From contig NZ_CP046072.1 in NCBI RefSeq assembly GCF_017357825.1, positions 1,922,001 through 1,986,000 on the forward strand: a stretch of 64,000 bases of DNA. The letters are read 5' to 3'. Shown here one piece after another: positions 22,035-38,533 of the stretch. The first letter of the stretch is position 1; every line of letters begins with the position of its first letter. The position numbers and the translations under genes are program-made. This stretch comes from Sulfurimonas aquatica (GTDB lineage Bacteria > Campylobacterota > Campylobacteria > Campylobacterales > Sulfurimonadaceae). The notes below the pieces were generated by a model. It saw nothing but the letters and a program-made list of their open reading frames with translations, did not search any database and was not told the origin of the DNA.

Positions 22035-22892
22035 TTATTTGTACATTTGTATATTGATTATTTGTAAGCCAGAACCTTCATCTGCAACATAAGCAAAGTT
22101 ACCTGAGATGTCAACTTTACTTGCAGAGCCAGGTGTATCCACGGTGGCAGTGAGAGTTGGAGAACTAGGAATTGATATATCTATTATTTGTAATCCTGAA
22201 CTACCATCAGCAACATAAGCATAATTTCCTGAAATAGTTACTCCCTCTGCACTACCTGAAGTATCTACTGTTGCCGTCAGAGTTGGAGAGCTTGGATTTG
22301 ATATATCGATGATTTGTAATCCTGAAGTGTAATCAGCAACATAAGCATAATTTCCTGAAATAGTAATTCCATATGCATACCCTGAAGTATCTAGAGTAGC
22401 AGTTAGAGTTGGAGAACTTGGATCTGATATATCTATAATATGTAATCCAGAATCTCCGTCAGCTACATAAGCATAATTCCCTGAAATAGTTACTCCCAAT
22501 GCAGTACCTGATGTATCTAAAGTAGCAGTTAGAGTTGGAGAATTTGGATTTGATATATCGATGATTTGTAATCCAGAATTTCCATCTGCAACATAAGCAT
22601 AACCTCCTGAAATAGCTACTCCATATGCACTACCTGAAGTATCTAGAGTAGCAGTCAATGTTGGAGATTTTGGATTTGAAATATCTATTATCTTCAATCC
22701 TGCAGCGGTATCAGCAGCATAAGCATAACTTCCTGAAATAGCTATACTTCTTGCATGACCAATATCTATGTTAGCAGTTAGAGTTGGAGAACTTGGATCT
22801 GATATATTTATAATTTGTAAACCATAATATCCGTTATCAGCAGCATAAGCATAACTTCCTGAAATAGCTACACATTTTAGTGTAGCACTATA
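22035..22892 (-). repeat. Seven tandem LVIVD propeller repeats, about 126 bp each
   Basis: The 3' part of the lipoprotein gene encodes seven units of 41-42 residues with the pattern ISGxYAYVAD-x4-GLQIIDIS-x-PxSPTLTAT. The DNA copies are very similar to each other, so the array could change in number by slippage or recombination. The last unit is cut short after GLQIINI. Confidence 0.88.
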
Positions 22893-25607
22893 GTTACTAA
22901 TAACCTGTGCAGTATTTGGATAATCTAAAATATTAATATCCCAACTTACATCTGAATCAAGCTTATATCCCGTAGCACTTTCTACATCCTTACTAAGAGT
23001 AATAGTATGAGTTCCAGCACTAAGGTTTGCATCTGGATCAAATATAATTGTCTTAGTAGTTCCATCATAAGACACACTTCCAGATACTGAAGATGAACCA
23101 TTAGTTAAAGTAACAGTACTATTTGTAATGGTTGAGGCATTCATCTCTGTAGTCATAGGTATAGAGATATTAAAGTCTACATAAGCGTTAGCGACCATAT
23201 TGGCTACTGCTGGTTTATCAACTATCTTATAAAAATCTATATCCTTCTGGGCTAGATAAGCGACTGATTCACCTCCATATAGAGCTAACTTCGTTGCGTT
23301 ACCTTCATTATTGTCAGGTTCATTCGCTGTAACATTAGTAAACCCATTCATTTTAGTCGTATCCGGTACCACTCCACTAGATATCATATATACATCTTCA
23401 TCAGTGATATTTGGTGTAGAGATTACTACATCATACTCATCAGTTTGAACTAAAGGCACTCTTACAAAGTTGTTGTAGCTTGAATTACTAAATGAGACAT
23501 TGATAAGGTTTCTACCTGGTGTCACTAAAAAGCCATTAAGTGTTTTAGTATTTGAGTTAAAGTAGAGATTGTGATGAGGATACTTACTGACTTTTATTGA
23601 AGCATAGTCATTCCAAGTTAAAGCATTGAAGTTATCATTTATAGTGATATTTATCTTGAAGTCTTTATCCTCTGTAGGACGAGTAAATGAGAAACTTGCA
23701 TCGTATGATTTACACTCGCCTGATGCGAAGGGAACTGCCGAGTTGTCATAGTTAGTGCTAAATGTTCTATTGATGTCAGTGGAATTAGAGTCAAGTGCTA
23801 TGTTAAAAGAGACACCTGAGATATCAGCTGTACCAATATTACAGATTTTTAATGTTTTAATATAAGAGATACTTGTTTCACCATCGTTATAGCCGAAGTA
23901 TCTCCAGTCATTTCCACTTTCCATGTATGACTTAAAGTTGTATGCTTTATCGGTTACGGTTAGGATTCCCATATCTGTCTCTTCACCTATAACACTTACA
24001 TTAAATGTGGCATTGTTGTCATTTTGAATTAAGGTTACTTCCGTATCGCCCGTAGGCATGGTAAGGTTACTCTCTCTAGGAATGACTAATCTACCATTTG
24101 TATTAGTTGGATCTTTAACATAAAGCGTCTCATTTGTTGTAGTAGTAGCAGGTGTTATTGTACCGACAAGATTATCATCAGTCGTTGGAACCACACTTAC
24201 TTTTCTCTCTTCATTTTGTAAATGGTTCCTTAAAATCATCTCGAGACTCCCTATGCCAGTAAATGACGATGCTAAACGCGATGGAGCAGCACTTGTAGCT
24301 GTTGTAAGAGTAGCTATCTCACCATTTAGTTTTACATCTGGTACTCCTGCACGGATAAGGTGGCGAGTAACATCATTTGAATTTACTACTTTGATGTGAT
24401 TTGTATCAATAATCTCTATAGATTTAAAAAATGTTGCCTTATTTATAACTACTGTAGACGCATCGTCTACATACGCCCACAGTCCATGTAAATTAGGGTT
24501 ATTGGCAAAGTACCCACCTCTGATACATCTAGGAGCCAAGTTACCAAATAAATTAGTTGAATTTATATATATAGAGTTTGTCCAGTATTCTTGATAATAG
24601 AATAGTGAATCATCAGGTTTAGAACTAGTAATATCAGTATTTGGAAGGTACCAATCATTTTTTTCATCATATAGTAAATTTTCACAGTATTCATTTGCTT
24701 TGTCTATTGTTGGTGCTAGTTCTTTATCTACATTGTCATAGCTATCTTGCCATTCGATGCTATATATATCATCCACAACTACTCTATCTTTTTGAGTACC
24801 TCTTACACATAGATATGAATTATATTGAGTTTTTTCTCTATTCTCAACATAAAATGTAATCTCTGTTGGACTATTCCAATTTATAGTAAAAGTAGATTGG
24901 TGAGTATCATCATATTGAGTACTAGACCAGAATATCTTGTGATAGTCATCAAGTGTATCTTTAGGATATATATCGTAAAACTTTCTTTGTAAAGTATAAG
25001 CCTCACCGATAGATGGAAGTCTCCAATCATCTTGAGTATTTTTAACTAAACCGTTACATGTTTCTACTGCATCATCTAGTTGAACACTATTATCAAATGT
25101 TGGTAACATCATCCATTCAAGGCCTGATTCAGTGTCACTGAATGATTCAGCTGTTTTATTAGCTCCAGCATATGTTCCACGAACACAATAGGTAGACTGT
25201 TTTTCAGTTTTTAAAAAGCTTCCATCTTTTGCTGATTCACCTGTTCCACCCCAAAGAGCTCTTACTGAAGAACTACTGATTTCGAATGAAGACCAATAGA
25301 TACCAGATCTAAATGGATCAAAGTTCTCATAGTCTGCATAGAGGCTCTCTAGGGAAGGGAGTCTCCAGTCTGTTTTACCAGCCCATGATAAATCTTCACA
25401 GTAGTCAACTGACTCTTGCCAAGTTCCACTGTATGCAGAAGAAGCATGTTGCCACTCAAGTGTAGTTGTTGGTGATAGATAAGTCTTATCACTACCTCCA
25501 TCTGTAGTAGTAGAAGTACCACTATCACCCCCTCCACCACCACAGCCAGTAAAAGCTAGGGTGGTTGTTAGTATCAAAGTAAATACTTTTAATATTAAAT
25601 ATTTCAT
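22035..25607 (-). CDS. Large surface lipoprotein: DUF1566 domains, Ig-like domain and LVIVD propeller
   Basis: A 1190-residue predicted lipoprotein. The signal peptide ends AFTGC (Cys22) followed by a Gly-rich linker. Residues about 45-365 hold three DUF1566 (Lcl-type) units, recognisable by W-R-LPS-x-ES/GE segments (DWRLPSLESL, DWRLPSIGEA, DWYLPNTD) and CVRGT. Residues 430-790 are beta-rich and unassigned. Residues about 805-900 are SbsA-type Ig-like (VTLTNGSSSVSGSV, IIFDPDANLSAGTHTITL). Residues 906-1190 are seven LVIVD repeats, probably a seven-bladed propeller. All parts suggest extracellular binding or adhesion. It is followed by the barrel-like gene and lies in the segment between the kdsB repeats. 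Confidence 0.82.
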   Translation of the reverse strand: MKYLILKVFTLILTTTLAFTGCGGGGGDSGTSTTTDGGSDKTYLSPTTTLEWQHASSAYSGTWQESVDYCEDLSWAGKTDWRLPSLESLYADYENFDPFRSGIYWSSFEISSSSVRALWGGTGESAKDGSFLKTEKQSTYCVRGTYAGANKTAESFSDTESGLEWMMLPTFDNSVQLDDAVETCNGLVKNTQDDWRLPSIGEAYTLQRKFYDIYPKDTLDDYHKIFWSSTQYDDTHQSTFTINWNSPTEITFYVENREKTQYNSYLCVRGTQKDRVVVDDIYSIEWQDSYDNVDKELAPTIDKANEYCENLLYDEKNDWYLPNTDITSSKPDDSLFYYQEYWTNSIYINSTNLFGNLAPRCIRGGYFANNPNLHGLWAYVDDASTVVINKATFFKSIEIIDTNHIKVVNSNDVTRHLIRAGVPDVKLNGEIATLTTATSAAPSRLASSFTGIGSLEMILRNHLQNEERKVSVVPTTDDNLVGTITPATTTTNETLYVKDPTNTNGRLVIPRESNLTMPTGDTEVTLIQNDNNATFNVSVIGEETDMGILTVTDKAYNFKSYMESGNDWRYFGYNDGETSISYIKTLKICNIGTADISGVSFNIALDSNSTDINRTFSTNYDNSAVPFASGECKSYDASFSFTRPTEDKDFKINITINDNFNALTWNDYASIKVSKYPHHNLYFNSNTKTLNGFLVTPGRNLINVSFSNSSYNNFVRVPLVQTDEYDVVISTPNITDEDVYMISSGVVPDTTKMNGFTNVTANEPDNNEGNATKLALYGGESVAYLAQKDIDFYKIVDKPAVANMVANAYVDFNISIPMTTEMNASTITNSTVTLTNGSSSVSGSVSYDGTTKTIIFDPDANLSAGTHTITLSKDVESATGYKLDSDVSWDINILDYPNTAQVISNYSATLKCVAISGSYAYAADNGYYGLQIINISDPSSPTLTANIDIGHARSIAISGSYAYAADTAAGLKIIDISNPKSPTLTATLDTSGSAYGVAISGGYAYVADGNSGLQIIDISNPNSPTLTATLDTSGTALGVTISGNYAYVADGDSGLHIIDISDPSSPTLTATLDTSGYAYGITISGNYAYVADYTSGLQIIDISNPSSPTLTATVDTSGSAEGVTISGNYAYVADGSSGLQIIDISIPSSPTLTATVDTPGSASKVDISGNFAYVADEGSGLQIINIQMYK

Positions 25608-26527: not shown

Positions 26528-27268
26528 CTATAATCTCTCAATGAGCTCTTTAACGCACTGCTTATAATCTTTCATTCCTTTTGAGCGCTTAGGGTCTAAT
26601 ATAATTGGCGAACCAAGTTCAAACTGCTGGGCAAGTTTTATATCAACTCCAATTGGAGAGAGAAGTTTCTCTTTTCCAAATGACGTTTTGACCTTTTCTA
26701 GCGACTCTTTATGCTCATTTATATGAGGATTAAACATAACAGGTAGTATAGACACGTCCGCCATATCTCTTTCCAATGTTTTTGAGCTTTGATAAATTGC
26801 TCGCAACATCTGTCCAACAGCCACTACACCCAAGTGATGTGGTACAAAGGGTATAACGACGCTATCTGCAACTTCTAATGAATTTTTTAAAAGGGCGTCA
26901 AAAGTGGGTGGAGTATCTATAACGCAATAATCAAAAAACTCCGCTATCTTCTCGCGTTTAAAACGGCTTTTGAGGACTCCTCTTAAATCAGAGTACTCAT
27001 ACACGTCAAAAAATGCCAATGCGGGAGAGAGTGTCAAATTTTCATGAACCGTAGGAATAAACGTTTCACTCAGAGTGGAGCCACTAAAAATAGAGTGCAC
27101 TCCTATCTTTTCATCAGGCTCACACCCAACACCAATAGAGGCATGTCCCTGTGTATCGAGATCTAAAAGTAATACCGAGCCGTATTTTGCAAGACCACTT
27201 GCTATATTGACTGCAGTTGTTGTTTTAGCCGATCCACCTTTTCTGTTACTAATTACAATGGTTTTCAC
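26528..27268 (-). CDS. ParA/MinD-family ATPase of the chemosensory operon
   Basis: A 246-residue ATPase with the deviant Walker A KGGSAKTTTAVNIA, DLDTQGHASIG, and VIDTPPTFDALL. It is more divergent than the chromosomal ParA at 8151. Its place beside che genes matches ParC-type ATPases, which position cytoplasmic or polar chemoreceptor arrays; that role is inferred from context. Two starts are possible: TTG at 27277 sits too close to AAGGG, while GTG at 27268 lies ten bases after it and gives the family-like start KTIVISNRKGG, so the GTG is preferred. It overlaps the STAS gene by 20 bp. Confidence 0.83.
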   Translation of the reverse strand: MKTIVISNRKGGSAKTTTAVNIASGLAKYGSVLLLDLDTQGHASIGVGCEPDEKIGVHSIFSGSTLSETFIPTVHENLTLSPALAFFDVYEYSDLRGVLKSRFKREKIAEFFDYCVIDTPPTFDALLKNSLEVADSVVIPFVPHHLGVVAVGQMLRAIYQSSKTLERDMADVSILPVMFNPHINEHKESLEKVKTSFGKEKLLSPIGVDIKLAQQFELGSPIILDPKRSKGMKDYKQCVKELIERL

Positions 27269-27518
27269 TAGTGTCAAACCCTTTTAATACTATTTCAAAA
27301 ATTTTTTTTGTATCACTAAATTCATATATACAGCTATAGTTTTTTTTATAAGCCATAATTAACTGCAGTATTGCGAGATGAATATCATCACACTCTTTAA
27401 AGTCAAAAGTCAACTCTTGTGAAGCCTTTTCTTGTAAAAAGTCTCTAAGTTGAATTACTTCATCTTCATATATTACAGAGTTAAAAGTAGCACTATTATT
27501 TTCATATGTAATTGCCAT
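27249..27518 (-). CDS. STAS-like small domain protein
   Basis: 89 residues with a STAS-like pattern: a short strand (ATFNSVIYEDEVIQLRDFLQ), QELTFDFKECDDIHLAILQLIMAY where a STAS loop Ser/Thr would be expected but Asp-Asp-Ile is present, and a C-terminal strand-helix. STAS proteins often work in phospho-switches or as scaffolds. Lack of the usual Ser suggests binding without phosphorylation. It lies between the CheW-CZB and ParA-like genes. The domain call is moderate because the sequence is short and divergent. Confidence 0.6.
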   Translation of the reverse strand: MAITYENNSATFNSVIYEDEVIQLRDFLQEKASQELTFDFKECDDIHLAILQLIMAYKKNYSCIYEFSDTKKIFEIVLKGFDTSENHCN

Positions 27519-27529
27519 TTTTCTATCCT

Positions 27530-28291
27530 TTAGCTTGGTATTTTTACTGTTTTAATCACATTTATTAAAACACCTTTTAAATCTAAAACACTATCTAATT
27601 CTAAAAAGTCGTGTTTATCACTATCATTAGTATCTATAAACTCACTCTCCTCTACATGCGCAATATCTTCTATAGTATCTACTTTAATAGCAAATGTAGC
27701 TCCATTATTATCATAAATGATAAATTTTTGTAGAGAATCAGAAACTAAATCTAGCTCTTGCGTAAATGTATCAAGTGAGCCCATTGTTACTTTAAAAATA
27801 TTTAATACGTTTTTATTAAATATTTTTAATGCTTCTTCCTTATCTTTTTCATAAGTTTCAAGTGCAACTGAACCCATCAAATGTAGTTCCTTATGAGATT
27901 CAGTCAACTCATTTAAAATTTCAACTACTTGCTCATCATATGCAGTAAATGAATCTAACCACTTTCCAAGACCACAAGCATGAGGGTCTAATGCCTGAGT
28001 AAAAGCAATCCCACTTTGAAGGGACTCCCTTAATGATTCAACCCACTCCTTATGTCCTCTTTTAAGAGTAATAAAAAGCTCTTTTAAATCACTCTCATAA
28101 GTATCTAATGATATCAGCTTACGAAAATTCAAAACTTTTATAACGCTTTTTTCATAAGACATCATGCCATCAATATAAGGATGTGAATTTGGTATTGGTG
28201 TTAGCCTAGTTGCTTGAACTATGCGTTGAACATTTGCTATATTCATCGCATATCTATTGTTGCTTACATTAAATACTATCAAATCAACCAT
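27530..28291 (-). CDS. cheW: CheW adaptor with an inserted zinc-binding CZB domain
   Basis: 253 residues. The CheW fold begins (LIVFNVSNNRYAMNIANVQRIV, PIPNSHPYIDGMMSYEKSVIKVLNFRKLI) and resumes after about residue 175 (FIIYDNNGATFAIKVDTIEDIAHV, then LDLKGVLINVIKTVKI). Between them is a CZB four-helix domain with all zinc ligands visible: H80 in HKEW, C106 in HACGLGKW, H133 and H137 in SHKELH. CZB domains sense zinc or oxidants such as hypochlorous acid in other proteins. It follows cheA by 12 bp and should couple CheA to the soluble receptor. Confidence 0.85.
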   Translation of the reverse strand: MVDLIVFNVSNNRYAMNIANVQRIVQATRLTPIPNSHPYIDGMMSYEKSVIKVLNFRKLISLDTYESDLKELFITLKRGHKEWVESLRESLQSGIAFTQALDPHACGLGKWLDSFTAYDEQVVEILNELTESHKELHLMGSVALETYEKDKEEALKIFNKNVLNIFKVTMGSLDTFTQELDLVSDSLQKFIIYDNNGATFAIKVDTIEDIAHVEESEFIDTNDSDKHDFLELDSVLDLKGVLINVIKTVKIPS

Positions 28292-31105: not shown

Positions 31106-31471
31106 TTAACTCTTAATTAAAATATCAACATATGCTTGAAGCTGGTCTGGTTTAATAGGCTTAGTTTCAAAAAGGTTAGCACCAACTTTATAAGCATTAA
31201 TTTTATCTTCTTCTTTTGCTTGCGTTGTAACCATAATTATCGGTACAGTTTTGTTACTTTCTTGCTTTCTTAAATCTTTTATAAAAGAATACCCATCCAT
31301 AATTGGCATATTGACATCAACAAGGTATAGATCTATTTTAGTGCCTAAACTCTTCTCTAAAGCTTCCATACCATTTTCAGCTTCTACTATCTCTAGACCC
31401 ATGGCTTTTAATATTGAACCGTGGTAATTTCTTACCGTTTTTGAATCATCTACGACCATGACTGTTGCCAT
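31106..31471 (-). CDS. cheY: CheY-like response regulator (next to cheA)
   Basis: A 121-residue stand-alone receiver. Acidic pocket D8-D9, phospho-acceptor D52 (LVDVNMPIMDG), switch T83 (IIMVTTQ) and K104 (ETKPI) are all in place, so it should be phosphorylatable by CheA. It lies between cheA and the CheZ-like gene. Whether it acts on flagella, pili or another output is unknown. Confidence 0.92.
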   Translation of the reverse strand: MATVMVVDDSKTVRNYHGSILKAMGLEIVEAENGMEALEKSLGTKIDLYLVDVNMPIMDGYSFIKDLRKQESNKTVPIIMVTTQAKEEDKINAYKVGANLFETKPIKPDQLQAYVDILIKS

Positions 31472-31480
31472 TGTATTCTC

Positions 31481-31879
31481 CTAAAAAAATTCTATTTCAT
31501 CATCTGAACTGTCTTGTGAAAACTTTCCAGAGAATCTGTTATTTTTATCTTTTGCTTTTTCCAAGGTATCTGTTAATTTTTCCTGTAACTTTACCATGCT
31601 CTGCTCAGTTAAACTTTCATCACTCTCATAAGAAGTAGTAAACCTATTCATACTACTTTTCATACTATCAATAGCTTCTATTGTAGCACTAAGTTGTTGG
31701 GTAATAATATCTTGATATTGAAATGCACTAGATAGCTTATCATCAATCTCAAGACTATTTTCTTCCATAAATGTGCTCATATTCATTAAAGAATCATTGG
31801 ATAACTTTATAACATTCTCTTCTACACTTTTTATATGTGTTAAAAGTTCATCTACACACTTAAGAATTACCATCTCCAT
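31481..31879 (-). CDS. CheZ-like CheY phosphatase (remote homologue)
   Basis: A 132-residue, all-helical protein with no Pfam-level match I would assert. The sequence SAFQYQDIITQQLSATIEAID (residues 51-71) resembles the CheZ catalytic helix (FQDLTGQ type), giving Q56-D57 as candidate catalytic residues. The C-terminus ends in an acidic-aromatic tail (DDEIEFF), comparable in position to the CheY-binding peptide of CheZ. Remote CheZ proteins of this kind are known from Helicobacter. It sits between two cheY genes, which fits a phosphatase. The alternative is an unknown helical adaptor. Confidence 0.6.
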   Translation of the reverse strand: MEMVILKCVDELLTHIKSVEENVIKLSNDSLMNMSTFMEENSLEIDDKLSSAFQYQDIITQQLSATIEAIDSMKSSMNRFTTSYESDESLTEQSMVKLQEKLTDTLEKAKDKNNRFSGKFSQDSSDDEIEFF

Positions 31880-31883
31880 TCTC

Positions 31884-32258
31884 TTAAGCCGGTAATCTTA
31901 AAACTCTAGTTATTGCTTGTTTTAACTGTGCAGGATTAAATGGCTTAACGATCCAACCTGTAAGACCTAATGCTTTACCTTGCTGCTTAAGCTCAGGCTT
32001 TGTTTCAGTCGTGAGCATAAGAGTAGGCGTTCTTTTTGTTGAGGGTACGCCTCGCAGTCCTTCTAAAAATTCAAAACCATTCATACCCGGCATATTTAGA
32101 TCTGTAATAATTAAATCAGGTATCATTCCCGCTTTTATTTCCGCTAATGCAACCTCTGCCTGTGTGTACTGCTTCACTTCTATTGGCATAGAATTTGTAA
32201 CCATTCTAGTTGAAGCTAGAGCTGTTTCACTATCATCTACAAATATTACTAATGGCAT
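31884..32258 (-). CDS. cheY: CheY-like response regulator (second copy)
   Basis: A 124-residue receiver with D8-D9, phospho-acceptor D53 (IITDLNMPGMNG), T84 (MLTTET) and K105 (IVKPF). It differs clearly from the other CheY and has more basic and Gly-rich surfaces, so the two probably have different targets, for example one signalling output and one phosphate sink. It is separated from cheR by 10 bp and from the CheZ-like gene by 4 bp. Confidence 0.92.
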   Translation of the reverse strand: MPLVIFVDDSETALASTRMVTNSMPIEVKQYTQAEVALAEIKAGMIPDLIITDLNMPGMNGFEFLEGLRGVPSTKRTPTLMLTTETKPELKQQGKALGLTGWIVKPFNPAQLKQAITRVLRLPA

Positions 32259-32268
32259 TCTTATTCTC

Positions 32269-33099
32269 CTATTTTTGATAAATTAAAGTATTTTCTATTT
32301 TTTTTGCATTAAAAACTGATACTATGCGACTCATATATTCAGCATGTCCTAAAAGGACATAACCATCAGGGTTCAACATATCATAAAAGGTCATCGCGAC
32401 CTCTTTTCTTGAAGCATCATCAAAATATATCAACATATTTCTTGAAAAAATAACATCAAATTTTCCAAGTTTTCTCATCTGTACCTTATCAAATACATTT
32501 GCTACTTGAAAATCTACTGAATCTAAAAGATCATCCCTTAAACTATAGTCTAAACCTTTTTTAACAAACCACTTTCCTAATATATTCTTTGGTATAGCAT
32601 GGATAGCACGCTCGCTATATTTAGCATCTTTTGCTTTTTTGATAACAGTAGAATCAATATCTATACCTACTACCTCAATATCACGCTTTTGGACTATATT
32701 TCTCTCTTCTAAAATATGTAAAACTATAGAGTAAGGCTCTTCCCCAGTTGAACAGGGAGCTGATAAAATCCTTATGGGTCTATCTGATTTGATACTAGCA
32801 TGAAGTTCAGCCAAGATATTATTTGCAAGTACTTCAAACTGATCTTTCTCTCTAAAGAAATATGTTTCATTTACTGTAACTGCATTCATAAGCTCTTGAA
32901 ACTCTAAACCACTCTTATCATCAAAACGCAGCTTAAAAAAATATTTTCTAAATGTATCAAATTCAAGTTTACTTGAACGCTGCTCTACATATTTGGCAAG
33001 TTTTTCATAGTGCTTATCTTCTTCAAGATGAATTCCACTTTTTCTATATATAAACTCTCCAATTTTTACAAAATTTTCTGTTGATAATAGATAGCCCAT
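32269..33099 (-). CDS. cheR: Chemotaxis protein methyltransferase CheR
   Basis: A 276-residue SAM-dependent glutamate O-methyltransferase for receptor adaptation. It has the N-terminal helical domain with AVTVNETYFFREKDQF, the SAM site RILSAPCSTGEEPYSI, DIDSTVIKKAK and FSRNMLIYFD. No C-terminal pentapeptide-binding or TPR extension is present. Its partner CheB lies two genes upstream and the likely substrate is the tandem receptor at 36195. Confidence 0.94.
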   Translation of the reverse strand: MGYLLSTENFVKIGEFIYRKSGIHLEEDKHYEKLAKYVEQRSSKLEFDTFRKYFFKLRFDDKSGLEFQELMNAVTVNETYFFREKDQFEVLANNILAELHASIKSDRPIRILSAPCSTGEEPYSIVLHILEERNIVQKRDIEVVGIDIDSTVIKKAKDAKYSERAIHAIPKNILGKWFVKKGLDYSLRDDLLDSVDFQVANVFDKVQMRKLGKFDVIFSRNMLIYFDDASRKEVAMTFYDMLNPDGYVLLGHAEYMSRIVSVFNAKKIENTLIYQK

Positions 33100-33102
33100 A
33101 TC

Positions 33103-33726
33103 TTATCCCTTAATCATCTTCACAGCACCATCTACTGCAAATTGAACATAAAACTCACCAGCGAAACGCTCTTTTAAAGACTCTAAAAGAGGAATATCTT
33201 CTTCCTCTCCAATTTCAGCCATATAATCAACTGCTGTCATAGCTACGTTAATCTCTTGTTCGGTCTCTAAAAGTTCCACAAGCATATCACGAGATTCAGA
33301 AAAATTCACATCACCGAGAACATTAATGGCAAAAATTCTTAAGTCTTTATCATCACCAATAAGAAACTTAATAATATAGTACCTTATAGAGTCACCAAAA
33401 TCTCTTAACATTGAAATTCCAAGATTTCGTACATATGCATTCTCTAAACGCAAAAGATCCATAATTTTCTCTATTGGTGCCTCATTGGAGTCCATATTCG
33501 AAATTACTGATGCAACCTTTGTAGAGAGCTTTTTATCTGCATCTTCATTGTTTATATACTCGATTAAATATTCTCCTCCACCATGAAACTTTATAATTTC
33601 TTCTATAACATACACTTTTTCATCAAAGTCAGTGCTCGTTTCAAAAAAATATTTTGCATCTTCAATGTTTGTAAAAGTTGGTAACTCTTTTATCTCTTGT
33701 TCAACATGTTTTTTAATTAAAGCCAT
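33103..33726 (-). CDS. HEAT-repeat-like protein
   Basis: A 207-residue helical protein with HEAT/PBS-lyase-type repeats in the middle and end (AYVRNLGISMLRDFGDS, LRIFAINVLGDVNFSESRDMLVELLE, VAMTAVDYMAEIGEEEDIPLLESL). HEAT repeats usually act as protein-binding scaffolds. It sits between cheB (10 bp) and cheR (3 bp), so a role in receptor modification or array assembly is inferred. HEAT-containing members are known in some che clusters but have no assigned mechanism. Confidence 0.75.
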   Translation of the reverse strand: MALIKKHVEQEIKELPTFTNIEDAKYFFETSTDFDEKVYVIEEIIKFHGGGEYLIEYINNEDADKKLSTKVASVISNMDSNEAPIEKIMDLLRLENAYVRNLGISMLRDFGDSIRYYIIKFLIGDDKDLRIFAINVLGDVNFSESRDMLVELLETEQEINVAMTAVDYMAEIGEEEDIPLLESLKERFAGEFYVQFAVDGAVKMIKG

Positions 33727-33736
33727 TCTCTTTCCC

Positions 33737-34813
33737 CTACCTTAGAGTCACAATTTTTTTTAAAATAGCAAGAAAATCAAGTTGCTCAAGTACCCCGCCC
33801 CTCTCATATGCTTCTTTTGGCATACCATAGATAGTTGCACTATTTTCACTTTCACCTATTGTGTATGCTCCAGCTTTTTTAAGTTCTACCATCGCATCTG
33901 CACCATCATCACCAATACCTGTTAATATAACGCCAACGATCTTCTTTGCATCAAATATTTTTAACGAACTATGCATCATCGCATTTACACTAGGTTGAAA
34001 AAAGCTACTACCCTTGTTTTTATCTTCATAAATTACTATTTTTCCTGATACTTTTTTTCTAAAGGTTAAATGAACACCTCCACGAGCTACATAAATATTT
34101 CCAGGTACTACTTCCATACCATTTTGAGTCTCATAAACAGGCAGAGGGCTTGCTCTATCTAAACGCTCTGCAAATGCTTTTGAGAAGTGTTCTGGCATAT
34201 GTTGCACTATGCAGATTGGATATTTATAACTTGATGGAACATGTGTACATATCTGCTCAATCAGACCCGGTCCTCCAGTAGAAGAACCAATTAAAACGAT
34301 TTTTTCAATCTCTTTTGTTGAAGAAACTGGGGCTTCTTTTCTTAATTCTGATTCTTTTCTAGTAACAAGTCTTCTTCTTTCTCGAGTTGCTGGTCTAAGT
34401 AAGTTTCTTTTTAATCTTCTAATCGAAATTTTACTTAACAGCTGAACTTTTTCAAGTATCTCTTCACGATTTTCATTTTTTCCAACATTCATTGTACCTG
34501 GTTTAGCAATATAATCAATGGCACCAAGCTCTAATGCTTCCATGGTAGTTGGGGCATCCTCTTTTGTTAGAGAACTTACCATTAATATAGGAGTAGCTTG
34601 TTTCTGCATAATCTGACGAGTTGCTTCTAATCCATCCATTATGGGCATATTTATGTCCATGGTTATGATATCGTATTGAAAAGATGTTGCCTTCTCAACT
34701 GCTTCGTGGCCATTTTTAGCAAAATCAATATTAAAATCTAAAGTTGATATAATCTCTTTGAGTTGTTTTCTTACAAGTGCAGAGTCGTCAACTATTAATA
34801 TGTTTTTACTCAT
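33737..34813 (-). CDS. cheB: Chemotaxis methylesterase/deamidase CheB
   Basis: A 358-residue CheB: an N-terminal receiver (D9-D10, phospho-acceptor D53 in TMDINMPIMDG), a linker rich in Arg and Ser (about 130-170), and the esterase domain with the catalytic serine in IGSSTGGPG, the catalytic histidine in QHMPEHFSKAFAERL and the aspartate in TGIGDDGADAM. CheA phosphorylation would activate demethylation of the receptor. Its ATG overlaps the stop of the triple CheW gene. Confidence 0.95.
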   Translation of the reverse strand: MSKNILIVDDSALVRKQLKEIISTLDFNIDFAKNGHEAVEKATSFQYDIITMDINMPIMDGLEATRQIMQKQATPILMVSSLTKEDAPTTMEALELGAIDYIAKPGTMNVGKNENREEILEKVQLLSKISIRRLKRNLLRPATRERRRLVTRKESELRKEAPVSSTKEIEKIVLIGSSTGGPGLIEQICTHVPSSYKYPICIVQHMPEHFSKAFAERLDRASPLPVYETQNGMEVVPGNIYVARGGVHLTFRKKVSGKIVIYEDKNKGSSFFQPSVNAMMHSSLKIFDAKKIVGVILTGIGDDGADAMVELKKAGAYTIGESENSATIYGMPKEAYERGGVLEQLDFLAILKKIVTLR

Positions 34814-36177
34814 TAATACTTTCCTTGAAGAATTTTTTCTACATCCATAGAGAGGACTAATCTCTTTCCATTATCTAGGTGGAGTATATTGTCAAAATAG
34901 TTATCGGCTTCTTCTTTAATCTCATCCTCTTTTACACTCAAGATATCACTTACACTATCGACAACAAATCCTATTCTAGTATCATCTATATTACATATAA
35001 TAATTTTAGAGTCCTCAGTAACTGATCTCGTAATATGCAACTTATCAAAAAGAGAGACTATAGTAACTATTTGACCTCTGATATTTATTATTCCATCAAT
35101 AAATTTATCCGTAAAAGCTATCTTAGTTGAAGGAATCATATCGATAATTTCATCTACATATTCAATATTAAAAGCATACTCTTTAGAAGCAAGTCTAAAT
35201 ACGATAACCTCCATCGCATAGACTTGAGAATTCTCTTGAAGAGTACTCTTATCTTTAGATTCAATATATGCATCATTCTCTTTAAGTATCTGCTGTATAA
35301 CTTCATGATTAAAAAATGAAATCAATGACTCATTCTCATGAATAACACCTGCTATCTTGCGGATTTGCGACTTCTCATTATGAAAGTACTCTATATCCTT
35401 TTTATTATAATTTTTAATATCTATAATAGAATCAATATAGAGTGCAATTTTTTTATCGCCGCAAGAGACCACTAAAATTCTATTTGTGTCACTATGCTTT
35501 GCTTCAAATCCATAATAGACTCTCAAATCTATAACCATTAAGAGTTCGTCTCTTAATGTTATAAGACCAAGTACCTCACTAGACGTTCCAGCAATTTGAG
35601 TGTAGTCACACTCAGCAAGAATAATCTCTTGGAGATAATCAATATCTAGAGCATATTTCTCTCTTGACATAGAAAATATCAAAAATCTTTGAGAATCCTC
35701 TTCTTTAGCAATCTTATTTTTAATTTTTCCTGAGTGAATCTCTTTTGATCTTATATCAATCTTGTTTATCTTACTAAAAAGTCTACTTAAGGATAAAACT
35801 TGAACAAGAGTGTTTTTATATTTGTATATCCCAACTACAGGGTCATCTTTGTCATCTAAGTATTCAATCCTATCTTGTTGAACTTCTACAGTATTATATA
35901 CAGTACTCACCAGAAGAGCATTAGAAGAGTACTCTTCATTCAAGCTAATAATTCTGCTTGAATTTGCTTCAATATCGACTTCACTTAAACCTAATAGTAA
36001 ATTCATATCCACCATAGAAACAACGCTTCCACTCACTGAGCACAAACCTCTTACTCCAGATGGACGTAGGGGAAGAGGCATTAATGATGGGACTCTAGAA
36101 ATCTGGTTTACCTCATCAATGGGTATACCATAACTCTCATGAGCATTCTTTACTATTAAAATCTCTTCAATTAGCAT
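34813..36177 (-). CDS. CheW-family adaptor with three CheW domains in tandem
   Basis: 454 residues, three successive CheW-like modules: about 1-140 (EEILIVKNAHESYGIPIDEV, VRGLCSVSGSVVSMVDMNLLLG), 165-310 (FLIFSMSREKYALDIDYLQEII, VLGLITLRDELLMVIDLRVYYG) and 322-454 (VIVFRLASKEYAFNIEYVDEII, IDGIINIRGQIVTIVSLFDKL). There is no CheV-type receiver. The operon also encodes a CheW-CZB protein and CheA's own CheW domain, so this one could cross-link receptors or hexagonal rings. It lies directly after the soluble receptor gene. Confidence 0.85.
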   Translation of the reverse strand: MLIEEILIVKNAHESYGIPIDEVNQISRVPSLMPLPLRPSGVRGLCSVSGSVVSMVDMNLLLGLSEVDIEANSSRIISLNEEYSSNALLVSTVYNTVEVQQDRIEYLDDKDDPVVGIYKYKNTLVQVLSLSRLFSKINKIDIRSKEIHSGKIKNKIAKEEDSQRFLIFSMSREKYALDIDYLQEIILAECDYTQIAGTSSEVLGLITLRDELLMVIDLRVYYGFEAKHSDTNRILVVSCGDKKIALYIDSIIDIKNYNKKDIEYFHNEKSQIRKIAGVIHENESLISFFNHEVIQQILKENDAYIESKDKSTLQENSQVYAMEVIVFRLASKEYAFNIEYVDEIIDMIPSTKIAFTDKFIDGIINIRGQIVTIVSLFDKLHITRSVTEDSKIIICNIDDTRIGFVVDSVSDILSVKEDEIKEEADNYFDNILHLDNGKRLVLSMDVEKILQGKY

Positions 36178-36194
36178 AGTTTACACCTACTTTT

Positions 36195-38087
36195 TTAACC
36201 TTGCTGAAGTTCATCAGCCATAACGGCCAACTCTTCTACGCCTTCTCCAATATGAGTAACAGTATCTATAATTAATTCACTTGCCTTACGTGATTCCATA
36301 GCATTTCTAGCACTAAGCTCAACAGCTTTTTGAATCTCGTTAATTCCAATCATCACCTGATTCATACCTTCTAGATTTTGATCATTTGCAGCCTTAAGGC
36401 CCGTATATTTATCTAGTAAATCAACTAGCATATCAGTAATCGTAACAATGTCCTCAACCAAAGAGTTAATATTTGTCTCTTCTAAACCTTGCGAATGTAA
36501 AAGATCACTCCAGTCACCCTTAACAGTATCAATCTCAGAGTTCATAGATTCAACGATATCATTAATTTTTTCAGTATTTGATTCTGAGTCTTTAGCAAGA
36601 TTTCTAATGTCAGCACTTACAACAGCAAAACCTTTGCCAAAATCACCTGCACGAGCAGCTTCGATTGAACCACTAATGGCAAGCATATTAAGCTGAACAA
36701 TCGAGTTTGATATATTTCCAACTGTTTTATCAACACTTTTTGTCTCTTTAACAATCACATTTAACTCAGAAGCAGCACTATTTCCTTGTGCTATGGAGTC
36801 TGCAAATGAAGTTTTAATTCCAATAACTGATGATTTAAGTTCATTAAAAGATATTTTTAAAAGATCGAAATTTCTTCTTGCTATCTCTATAAGTTTATCT
36901 ATATCTTTAGCTGTAAGAAGCCCTGATTGAATTAACTCTTTATTATTTAACGCACTCTGGTTTGTACTTTGCGAAGCCTCTTCCATTTGATTTAATGAAG
37001 CAGTAACATCTTCAAGTGCATTTTGAATGTCATCCATAGAACCACTAATAGTATCAGCACTTAATGCTATATCTTCAGCGGACTTCATAGTGTCTGTAGA
37101 GTATTTTAACTCTTCAGCTAGATTAGACAACTCTTTGATGTCATCTTCTGTTTGAGAGAGTGCATCTGACTGTATCTCTATAGAGTTGAGTGTAGTTTCA
37201 ACTGAAAGGGCAATTTGAGATGATGCCACAGCAATCTCTTGCGAACCGGCATTAATCTTATCTATAGAGTTTCCAAGTTGACTTGTATATGAGCCTATAC
37301 TTCTAGATGCTTCAACAGAATAGACTGCTATTTTAGTCAACTCTTCCATCTTAAGACTTAACTCATTTCCTTTACTACCATTATCAGCGATAATATTTGT
37401 CGTAGAGCCTATGCTTCTGATGATACTATCTATGCTACTTTGAATTTTATTTACAAGTTCAGAAATAAACTCAGCATTTTTTTCACTCTCTCCAGCTAAC
37501 GAACGAGTCTCATCTGCAACAACGGCAAAACCTTTACCATGCTCTTTTGCACGCGATGCTTCAATAGCTGCGTTTAATGCTAGTAAGTTAGTTTGGTCTG
37601 CAATCTTTGCAATAAATCCAACTGCATTACCAATATTTTGAGAAGACTCTTTGAGCTCTTCACTCTTTGTTGAAGACTCTTTTGCCACATTTACAGCGGT
37701 CGCCATTCTATCAACGGAGGTATTGATTTTATTTACTGCGGCCATGATATTATCACCTGCAGCTAGAGTAGAGTTTGTTACACTCTCTATAGTTGAAGCC
37801 ATTCGTCCAATGTTAGTGTTTATGCCTTTGACGTTTGAGAGAGCTTGCTCACTCGCGCCACTATTCTCTTCAGCTGCTGTTGCAATTTGCTCCATTGAAG
37901 ATTTCAACTCTTCTATTGCACTTACACTCTCTTGAGCATTTTCTAAAATACTCATCGAAACACCAGCAATGCTCTCACTAATTTGTTGTTGTTTAGCTAA
38001 TGTTCTCTGTTTTCGTTTATCAGTTCCCGAACTAGGAGCTATTACTGCTGAAGATGTGCCCGAACCACTTTTTTTCATTAATGCCAT
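36195..38087 (-). CDS. Soluble chemoreceptor with two signalling domains in tandem
   Basis: A 630-residue methyl-accepting chemotaxis protein without a membrane helix, signal peptide or ligand domain; almost all is coiled coil. The first hairpin tip (about 160-200) is canonical ([22 protein letters not shown], then [18 protein letters not shown]). A second tip at about 460-500 is related but altered ([20 protein letters not shown], then [18 protein letters not shown], missing the canonical [10 protein letters not shown] start). It would therefore sit in the cytoplasm and take input from partners such as the PAS protein encoded 17 bp upstream. Confidence 0.88.
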
Positions 38088-38104: not shown

Positions 38105-38533
38105 TTAATCTAGTGTTGCGTAAAGTTCTTGGGCTTTTTGAACATCTTCACGTGATGGTTTAGTGCGTATTGATACATATTTTGTGTTTCCATTTTTATC
38201 TATAGAGCGTAGGATTGTTGCAAGTACCCAATAATATCCTCCACCTTTACGTGCATTTTTAACAAAACCTGTCCAGAAGCCTTTTGCTTGAATATCTCCC
38301 CAAAGAGACTTAAATGCAGCTCTTGGCATATCGGGGTGTCTAACGACATTATGTGGTTGGCCGATTAGTTCGTCTTCTCTCATATTCGCAATTTTTAAAA
38401 AGGAGTCACTTGCATATTTAACTATCCCCTTTTCATCTGTTTCTGAGAGTAGATAAAGATCATTATATAAAACTTCTCCATCTTCTAAAAATGTGAGACC
38501 TTCGGTACTAATATCATTATTATTTTTTGACAC
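38105..38533 (-). CDS. Aer-type PAS domain protein
   Basis: A 142-residue single PAS domain (SETDEKGIVKYASDSFLKIANMREDELIGQPHNVVRHPDMPRAAF...) of the Aer/MCP-associated type, in which FAD or haem can be bound. No other domain is present. It starts with GTG at 38533 after a strong GGAGG. It is the first gene of the chemosensory operon and lies 17 bp before the soluble receptor, so it may be the detached sensor of that receptor, for redox or energy state. Cofactor binding cannot be read from the sequence. Confidence 0.85.
   Translation of the reverse strand: MSKNNNDISTEGLTFLEDGEVLYNDLYLLSETDEKGIVKYASDSFLKIANMREDELIGQPHNVVRHPDMPRAAFKSLWGDIQAKGFWTGFVKNARKGGGYYWVLATILRSIDKNGNTKYVSIRTKPSREDVQKAQELYATLD

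Follow-up and report, generated by a model that had tools for sequence, protein, structure and literature searches.

A DosM-type chemoreceptor with two signalling tips and a full F9 chemosensory gene set in Sulfurimonas aquatica

DosM (VC1403) belongs to chemosensory cluster I (class F9) of Vibrio cholerae. It has two MCP domains in a soluble chain, a triple CheW as its neighbour and a place in a che operon (PMC7534058; PMC9321776). A review describes the protein as spanning two CheA/CheW layers (PMC7534058). The signature of the F9 class is the joint presence of DosM and CheW3 (PMC9321776). F9 arrays have been seen in cells, although the survey gives their task as unknown (PMC9321776). Components of F9 or cluster I appear under stress or low oxygen (PMC6479200, PMC11940527). 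In the Campylobacterota, the survey lists partial F9 sets in three species, and its F9 section names no full set (PMC9321776).

The window, a stretch of 64,000 nucleotides from Sulfurimonas aquatica, encodes a DosM, the double-signalling-domain receptor of the F9 class and a member of an already known family. The protein has tandem MCP signalling domains in a single chain, seen as two MCPsignal stretches (Pfam, E 1.8e-50). A tip profile made from 50 tip sequences, taken from DosM relatives and from receptors of the window genome, also matched twice, at residues 144-217 and 444-517. No sensor domain was found with Pfam at E 0.001, no HAMP domain was found, and a simple hydropathy threshold gave no membrane segment. 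The gene adjoins that of CheW3, which has three concatenated CheW domains, and the cluster has its own cheA, cheY, cheB and cheR. Since DosM and CheW3 together are the published F9 signature, the protein is assigned to DosM and the operon is taken as a full F9 set (Table 1). The reading frame, strand and tip ranges given by the first-pass annotation were correct, and its description of a soluble receptor without a sensor agrees with these searches.

Table 1. Features of the F9 locus, in window coordinates and in order of transcription.
Feature	Position	Strand	Remarks
Stand-alone PAS protein, Aer-like	38105..38533	-	best solved-structure match is an aerotaxis receptor PAS (8dik, E 1.3e-28)
DosM-type double-tip chemoreceptor	36195..38087	-	630 aa ORF; two MCP domains; paired hinge glutamates
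Tip 1, canonical MCP tip	37437..37658	-	residues 144-217, hinge E176
Midpoint junction	37044..37136	-	residues 318-348; LAE(E/D)LKxSTD region, model break at 328-332, one-residue heptad slip
Tip 2, family-specific variant tip	36537..36758	-	residues 444-517, hinge E476
CheW3, three CheW domains in one chain, F9 signature	34813..36177	-	
CheB methylesterase	33737..34813	-	
HEAT-repeat protein, between cheB and cheR	33103..33726	-	
CheR methyltransferase	32269..33099	-	
CheY-like receiver 1	31884..32258	-	
Small protein, possibly CheZ-like	31481..31879	-	conserved QYQDII-QQL, C-terminal IEFF
CheY-like receiver 2	31106..31471	-	
CheA kinase, 930 aa	28304..31096	-	
CheW with inserted CZB zinc-binding domain	27530..28291	-	
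ParA-family ATPase, candidate array-positioning protein	26528..27277	-	

The operon is transcribed in the order PAS, DosM, CheW3, CheB, HEAT, CheR, CheY, small protein, CheY, CheA, CheW-CZB and ParA. Its conservation was followed in 17 slices around same-phylum relatives, eight of which are of the same family and seven of these of the same genus. All eight same-family slices gave matches to the PAS protein, DosM, CheW3, CheA and both CheYs. CheW-CZB was matched in all eight as well, four of them with only the first part (residues 1-66, 1-72, 1-72 and 1-148, the last at a slice end). CheB, the HEAT-repeat protein and CheR were matched in 7/8, the contig of the eighth being short, ParA in 7/8 and the small protein in 6/8. 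Two slices (L037 and L038) have a rearranged order, with the PAS-DosM-CheW3 genes placed after the parA gene. Among 295 genomes from the order to which an Aeromonas record belongs, the only two that matched carry dosM, cheW3, cheB, HEAT, cheR, cheY, cheA, parA and cheY, an order which nearly equals that of the window. The HEAT-repeat gene was matched in those two genomes and also in L052 and L057. A parA match lay within the dosM locus in 2/10 of the slices L051-L060, namely L055 (Clostridium) and L057 (Denitrovibrio). The C-terminal half of dosM was matched in 16/397 genomes of the phylum, in 2/295, 9/300, 8/341 and 4/337 genomes of four other groups and in 20 plasmid records, and CheW3 was matched in 52/135 genomes of the window's genus; the genome searches scored few candidates per genome (5 to 12), so absences in these counts are weak.

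Several genes of the locus have features of their own. The window PAS protein carries GQPHNVVRHPDMP, aligned to an aerotaxis receptor. The small protein (132 aa) matched neither Pfam nor NCBIfam at E 0.001. In 7 sequences QYQDII-QQL-ATIEAI is invariant and the C-terminus is IEFF; its D-x-x-x-Q spacing and end peptide recall CheZ. CheA has about 440 residues without a Pfam match between Hpt and the dimerisation domain. The 3 His/1 Cys pattern of CheW-CZB is apparently intact by eye, and His residues are lost in the L037 and L038 copies. Downstream of the operon, at 22035-25607, a 1190-aa protein has LVIVD repeats and Lcl C-terminal domains. In two other slices (L042 9029-9811 and L043 9838-10632) a CheW-CZB gene directly follows dosM, in the place that cheW3 has elsewhere. 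No separate CheW3 was found in these two slices, and the CZB match of L042 is under the Pfam cut-off. F9-like systems without the signature CheW3 may therefore exist. In L151 (G1125) a dosM-like gene is read as two frames with one tip each, which could be a split gene, a frameshift or a sequencing error.

The window genome has 13 other MCP matches, four without a predicted membrane segment. These four have 213, 203, 136 and 104 residues after the hinge, compared with 154 in DosM, and the first two values include CZB-like tails. None of the soluble ones seen among the 13 clearly matches DosM in arm length. DosM of V. cholerae reportedly occurs in the same trimers as other receptors; either such a partner was missed here or the array of the window differs. 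L010 (G000:C1:470070-470540) is a soluble 295-aa MCP with one tip, whose length leaves little room for a sensor, and lies about 5 kb from the soluble MCP L009. L012 (G000:C1:668202-668507) is an MCP match in an open frame with one stop inside.

The geometry of DosM was compared in 46 distinct complete two-tip proteins, which are the window protein and sets of 26, 2 and 17, the last after removal of the duplicates L139, L148 and L163. L151 (split reading frame), L054 (no complete two-tip frame) and L156-L162 (first halves, either of L151 or of proteins that are in the sample) are left out. A contig scan gave at least 80 loci, nine with a complete two-tip frame, and 71 were dropped. The distance between the two hinges is 300 residues in 36 of the 46, 299 in six, 298, 294 and 293 once each, and 402 once. 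The window protein has 300, in contrast to L044-L050, seven proteins from five genomes without a nearby cheA match, all of which depart from this value (293-299); they are mutually related, so they count for little more than one observation. The single value of 402 (300 + 102) belongs to the DosM L057 8333-10570 (Denitrovibrio), in which an inserted CZB domain (Pfam E 4.2e-14) separates the tips.

The arm after the second hinge is 151-156 residues long in 46/46 proteins and 154 in the window. In the N-terminal arm of the window protein, 148 residues separate the first hinge from the conserved RTLAKQQ at residue 28. With these lengths both arms reach roughly the middle of the molecule. The window's 154 residues are 22 x 7, and the heptad phase is steady within each hairpin, as may fit the 44H signalling domains of DosM (22 heptads per arm). 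In the mean of 12 representatives the phase stays within about 40 degrees across hairpin 1 and likewise across hairpin 2, and it jumps by about 105 degrees, or one residue, at the midpoint junction. This one-residue slip in register results from the spacing, since 300 leaves 6 on division by 7. A layer distance of about 36 nm is estimated from the 300 residues, as 44.4 nm less the inset of an E. coli receptor fragment, for which a helix of 39.4 nm presumably gives 31 nm if the assumed fragment limits and rise per residue are right. The estimate is close to the layer spacing of about 35 nm observed in V. cholerae arrays, and the E. coli fragment sheets are 31 nm apart (PMC3964821, eLife 2014).

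The two tips of DosM differ at specific positions, which are given here in what is presumably the residue numbering of Tsr. Position 382 is Ala in 46/46 first tips and Gly in 46/46 second tips. Position 402 is Glu in 44/46 first tips (Thr in the other two) and Asp in 46/46 second tips. Position 403 is Ile in all 46 second tips, and in first tips it is Val (26), Thr (11) or Ile (9). The 39 proteins of the main group, all but the cheA-less L044-L050, have Asp at position 373 in 39/39 first tips and 0/39 second tips, and Leu at position 377 in 38 first tips compared with Met in 37 second tips. The second tips of this main group keep Q374 in 36, T375 in 29 and N376 in 32. Nine have Leu at 375 instead, the window protein and its eight same-family relatives; therefore, T375L is a change of the window's own lineage. 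N381 of tip 2 is lost in the window protein and kept in 28/46. Positions 373, 381, 385, 388 and 398 of Tsr (F, N, E, R and V) are presumably trimer contacts, by an offset of our own, and read V, S, E, R and V in tip 2 of the window protein and D, N, E, R and V in tip 1. They are aligned to five trimer-contact residues named for another MCP (PMC8466855).

Mean identity in the window's nine-member clade is 0.970 for tip 1, 0.943 for tip 2 and 0.73-0.80 for four stalk regions. The other parts have 0.943 (C-end), 0.928 (N-terminal part) and 0.866 (middle). When tips were compared between 18 representatives, each was closest to the tip in the same position of another protein (36/36). Because of the conservation in the clade and the consistent position-specific residues, tip 2 is judged, at the level of sequence, to be a type of its own under strong constraint, maintained and not decayed. 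In L044-L050 the first tip is also non-canonical. Four residues of tip 1 are absent in the alignment of L044, L045 and L046, and tip 2 has Glu at 398 in all seven. The passages on DosM that were consulted, from searches directed at other subjects than tip asymmetry and outside the primary DosM paper, hold no description of the conserved tip difference or of the fixed 300-residue spacing.

Residues 331-630 of DosM were modelled alone, from an alignment including eight relatives, with a mean pLDDT of 89.3 and a pTM of 0.48. The model aligns ungapped over 300/300 residues with the T. maritima receptor 2ch7_B (3.4 A, Z 17.6, VIA-align). Among the 50 structural matches listed, the top five are MCPs, including two integrative models, and after the MCPs come SMC coiled-coil hairpins, which are unrelated (Z 14.0 and 13.8). 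Modelled on its own, the second half matches receptor hairpins from end to end, which identifies it as a genuine receptor tip. The first-pass annotation had named a structure prediction as the way to disprove its second tip, and the tip survived that prediction. DSSP gives an unbroken helix through the turn of tip 2 in both the half model and the full-length model, so the structural alignment is relied on instead of the DSSP string. Residues 31-330 of the full-length model superpose on an MCP model (300 residues, 1.4 A, Z 12.9), a match ranked under 19 others, mostly unrelated helical proteins. Since the first-half match is outranked in this way, the hairpin claim is based on the second half modelled alone and on sequence. 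A profile of the C-terminal half matches the N-terminal half too, from position 4 to 299, in five relatives; it also matched an ordinary one-tip MCP (9.1e-39; L138), so this match is not specific.

DosM is likely to consist of two MCP hairpins of about 300 residues joined base to base, in a rod that holds a two-layered membrane-free F9 array. An alternative is a chain that turns at 328-332 and lays its hairpins side by side, so that a monomer mimics a receptor dimer and both tips enter the same baseplate. The full-length AlphaFold2 monomer (pLDDT 89.9, pTM 0.64) breaks its helix at 328-332, next to residue 326, the midpoint of E176 and E476. It gives no rod; the structures that align best with it are unrelated helical proteins, in alignments that run across both halves, which suggests hairpins packed side by side in the model. 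However, a monomer predicted without its dimer partner would probably favour such packing in any case, and the model is for that reason not decisive between the two shapes. The slip in heptad phase was also considered as an arbiter and fits both topologies, and the equal arms of about 150 residues fit a folded-back chain and a rod alike. According to the review, cryo-tomography shows V. cholerae DosM as an extended rod that has tips at both ends (PMC7534058), which makes the folded-back chain improbable. By analogy, the DosM dimer of the window is most likely a long rod. A double-layer cytoplasmic array had been guessed from the window sequence, and the guess was right in kind, as the V. cholerae protein spans two such layers.

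The division of work between the tips of such a rod can also be questioned. Tip 1 might couple to CheA, with tip 2 serving purely as a structural cap whose partners are CheW domains alone or other receptors alone. The G382 and D402 of tip 2 would fit a cap, given that the 13/13 other MCP tips of the genome have A382 and E402, and so would the absence of T375 and N381 from tip 2 in the window lineage. On the other hand, E385, R388, V398 and the glycine turn (G393-G395-F396) are retained in tip 2 of the window protein, and this tip varies little within the clade. The second tips of the main group mostly keep Q374, T375 and N376, N381 is kept in most of the 46, and tip 1 is likewise non-canonical in L044-L050, where no cheA match lies nearby. 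A pure cap is thus rather unlikely. The first-pass annotation had suggested that one tip signals while the other only packs, which finds no support in the near-equal conservation of the two tips or in the departing first tips of L044-L050. Its statement that tip 2 loses a ten-residue stretch contacting CheA and CheW was overstated, since Q, N, L and A are kept (4/10). A recent duplication or fusion with a decaying second half would agree with the low identity of the two halves in the window protein (19.5%, ungapped), but the same two-tip layout is found in records from several phyla, each tip has its nearest relative at the same position, and tip 2 is too well conserved in the clade. Decay is therefore highly improbable.

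A further reading, put forward tentatively, is that the two kinds of tip are kept apart across the sampled lineages and make the F9 array polar. The two faces of the sandwich could then be chemically unequal, with a CheW fold for each tip, and the spacing and slip might set the distance and rotation between the layers. Tip A would resemble that of ordinary receptors, and tip B would be marked by Gly382, Asp402, Ile403 and a residue other than Asp at 373. If this is true, each tip would read a different CheW fold (a CheW3 domain, CheW-CZB or CheA P5), and one layer could be regulated separately from the other. The operon offers testable handles: its receptor lacks a sensor, the Aer-like PAS protein and CheW-CZB are candidates for sensory adaptors, and the two tips are conserved and unequal.

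The function and the rod shape of the window protein are proposed by analogy with a homologue, for which a rod between two baseplates has been shown. Tip 1 would plug into one CheA/CheW3 sheet, and the chain would continue through the middle to tip 2, seated in the opposing CheA/CheW3 sheet. Both the N-terminal arm, counted from about residue 28, and the C-terminus at residue 630 would end at the midplane. DosM would thus hold together a two-layered membrane-free F9 array here as well. Input probably comes through two adaptors, the Aer-like PAS protein and CheW-CZB, because DosM lacks a sensor and no second soluble receptor was seen whose arm clearly matches in length. The presence of a CZB domain within CheW has been described as a minor class (PMC8262984). 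The ParA-like ATPase may position the array, as ParA homologues in che operons have been linked to the positioning of cytoplasmic clusters (PMC2829493, PMC3964821). Output would pass through the two CheY proteins. These were aligned to what is taken to be the E. coli CheY sequence. Among the motor-binding residues listed in the survey (PMC9321776), both lack W58 and K119 and keep K91. Since W58 and K119 are missing, direct motor control by both CheYs is doubtful from their sequences.

Among known systems, the partial F9 sets of Nitratiruptor and Nautilia, of the same phylum as the window, consist of dosM and cheW3 (PMC9321776), whereas the window also has cheA, two cheY, cheB and cheR. The full set in the window extends the survey, whose F9 section lists only partial sets for the Campylobacterota (PMC9321776). 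The 16S gene agrees with a place in this phylum. Among 507 matching records of a plasmid collection, the two listed highest, each matched over the full length, are Sulfurovum mangrovi (89.9%) and Aliarcobacter cibarius (86.5%), which are Campylobacterota, and the next has 79.0%; 189 records fall between 80 and 90%, mostly unlisted and placed lower by coverage times identity. A 16S search of eight genomes gave no match in the one from the Campylobacterales, and FlhA did not discriminate as a marker, with 45-46% identity to three lineages. The loci of L044-L050, with no cheA match in their slices, seem to resemble the Nitratiruptor and Nautilia sets. Aer and the CetA-CetB redox receptors have a PAS protein beside an MCP, as in the window. 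The MCP partner in a CetA/CetB-type bipartite receptor has a membrane segment and a HAMP domain, whereas neither was found in the window MCP, which has two tips. Receptors of the TlpT/PpfA type of cluster have one signalling domain each, in contrast to the two of the window DosM. The Rhodobacter sphaeroides cytoplasmic cluster (TlpT, TlpC, PpfA) is a membrane-free array with two baseplates and has a ParA-type ATPase gene nearby, as do the che genes of the window, and TlpT is described as a classical MCP coiled coil (PMC3964821). Compared by description and not by sequence, the window locus shares with DosM (VC1403) of V. cholerae the paired MCP domains, the triple-CheW neighbour and the che operon, and it differs in having an Aer-like PAS protein and a CheW-CZB in its operon.
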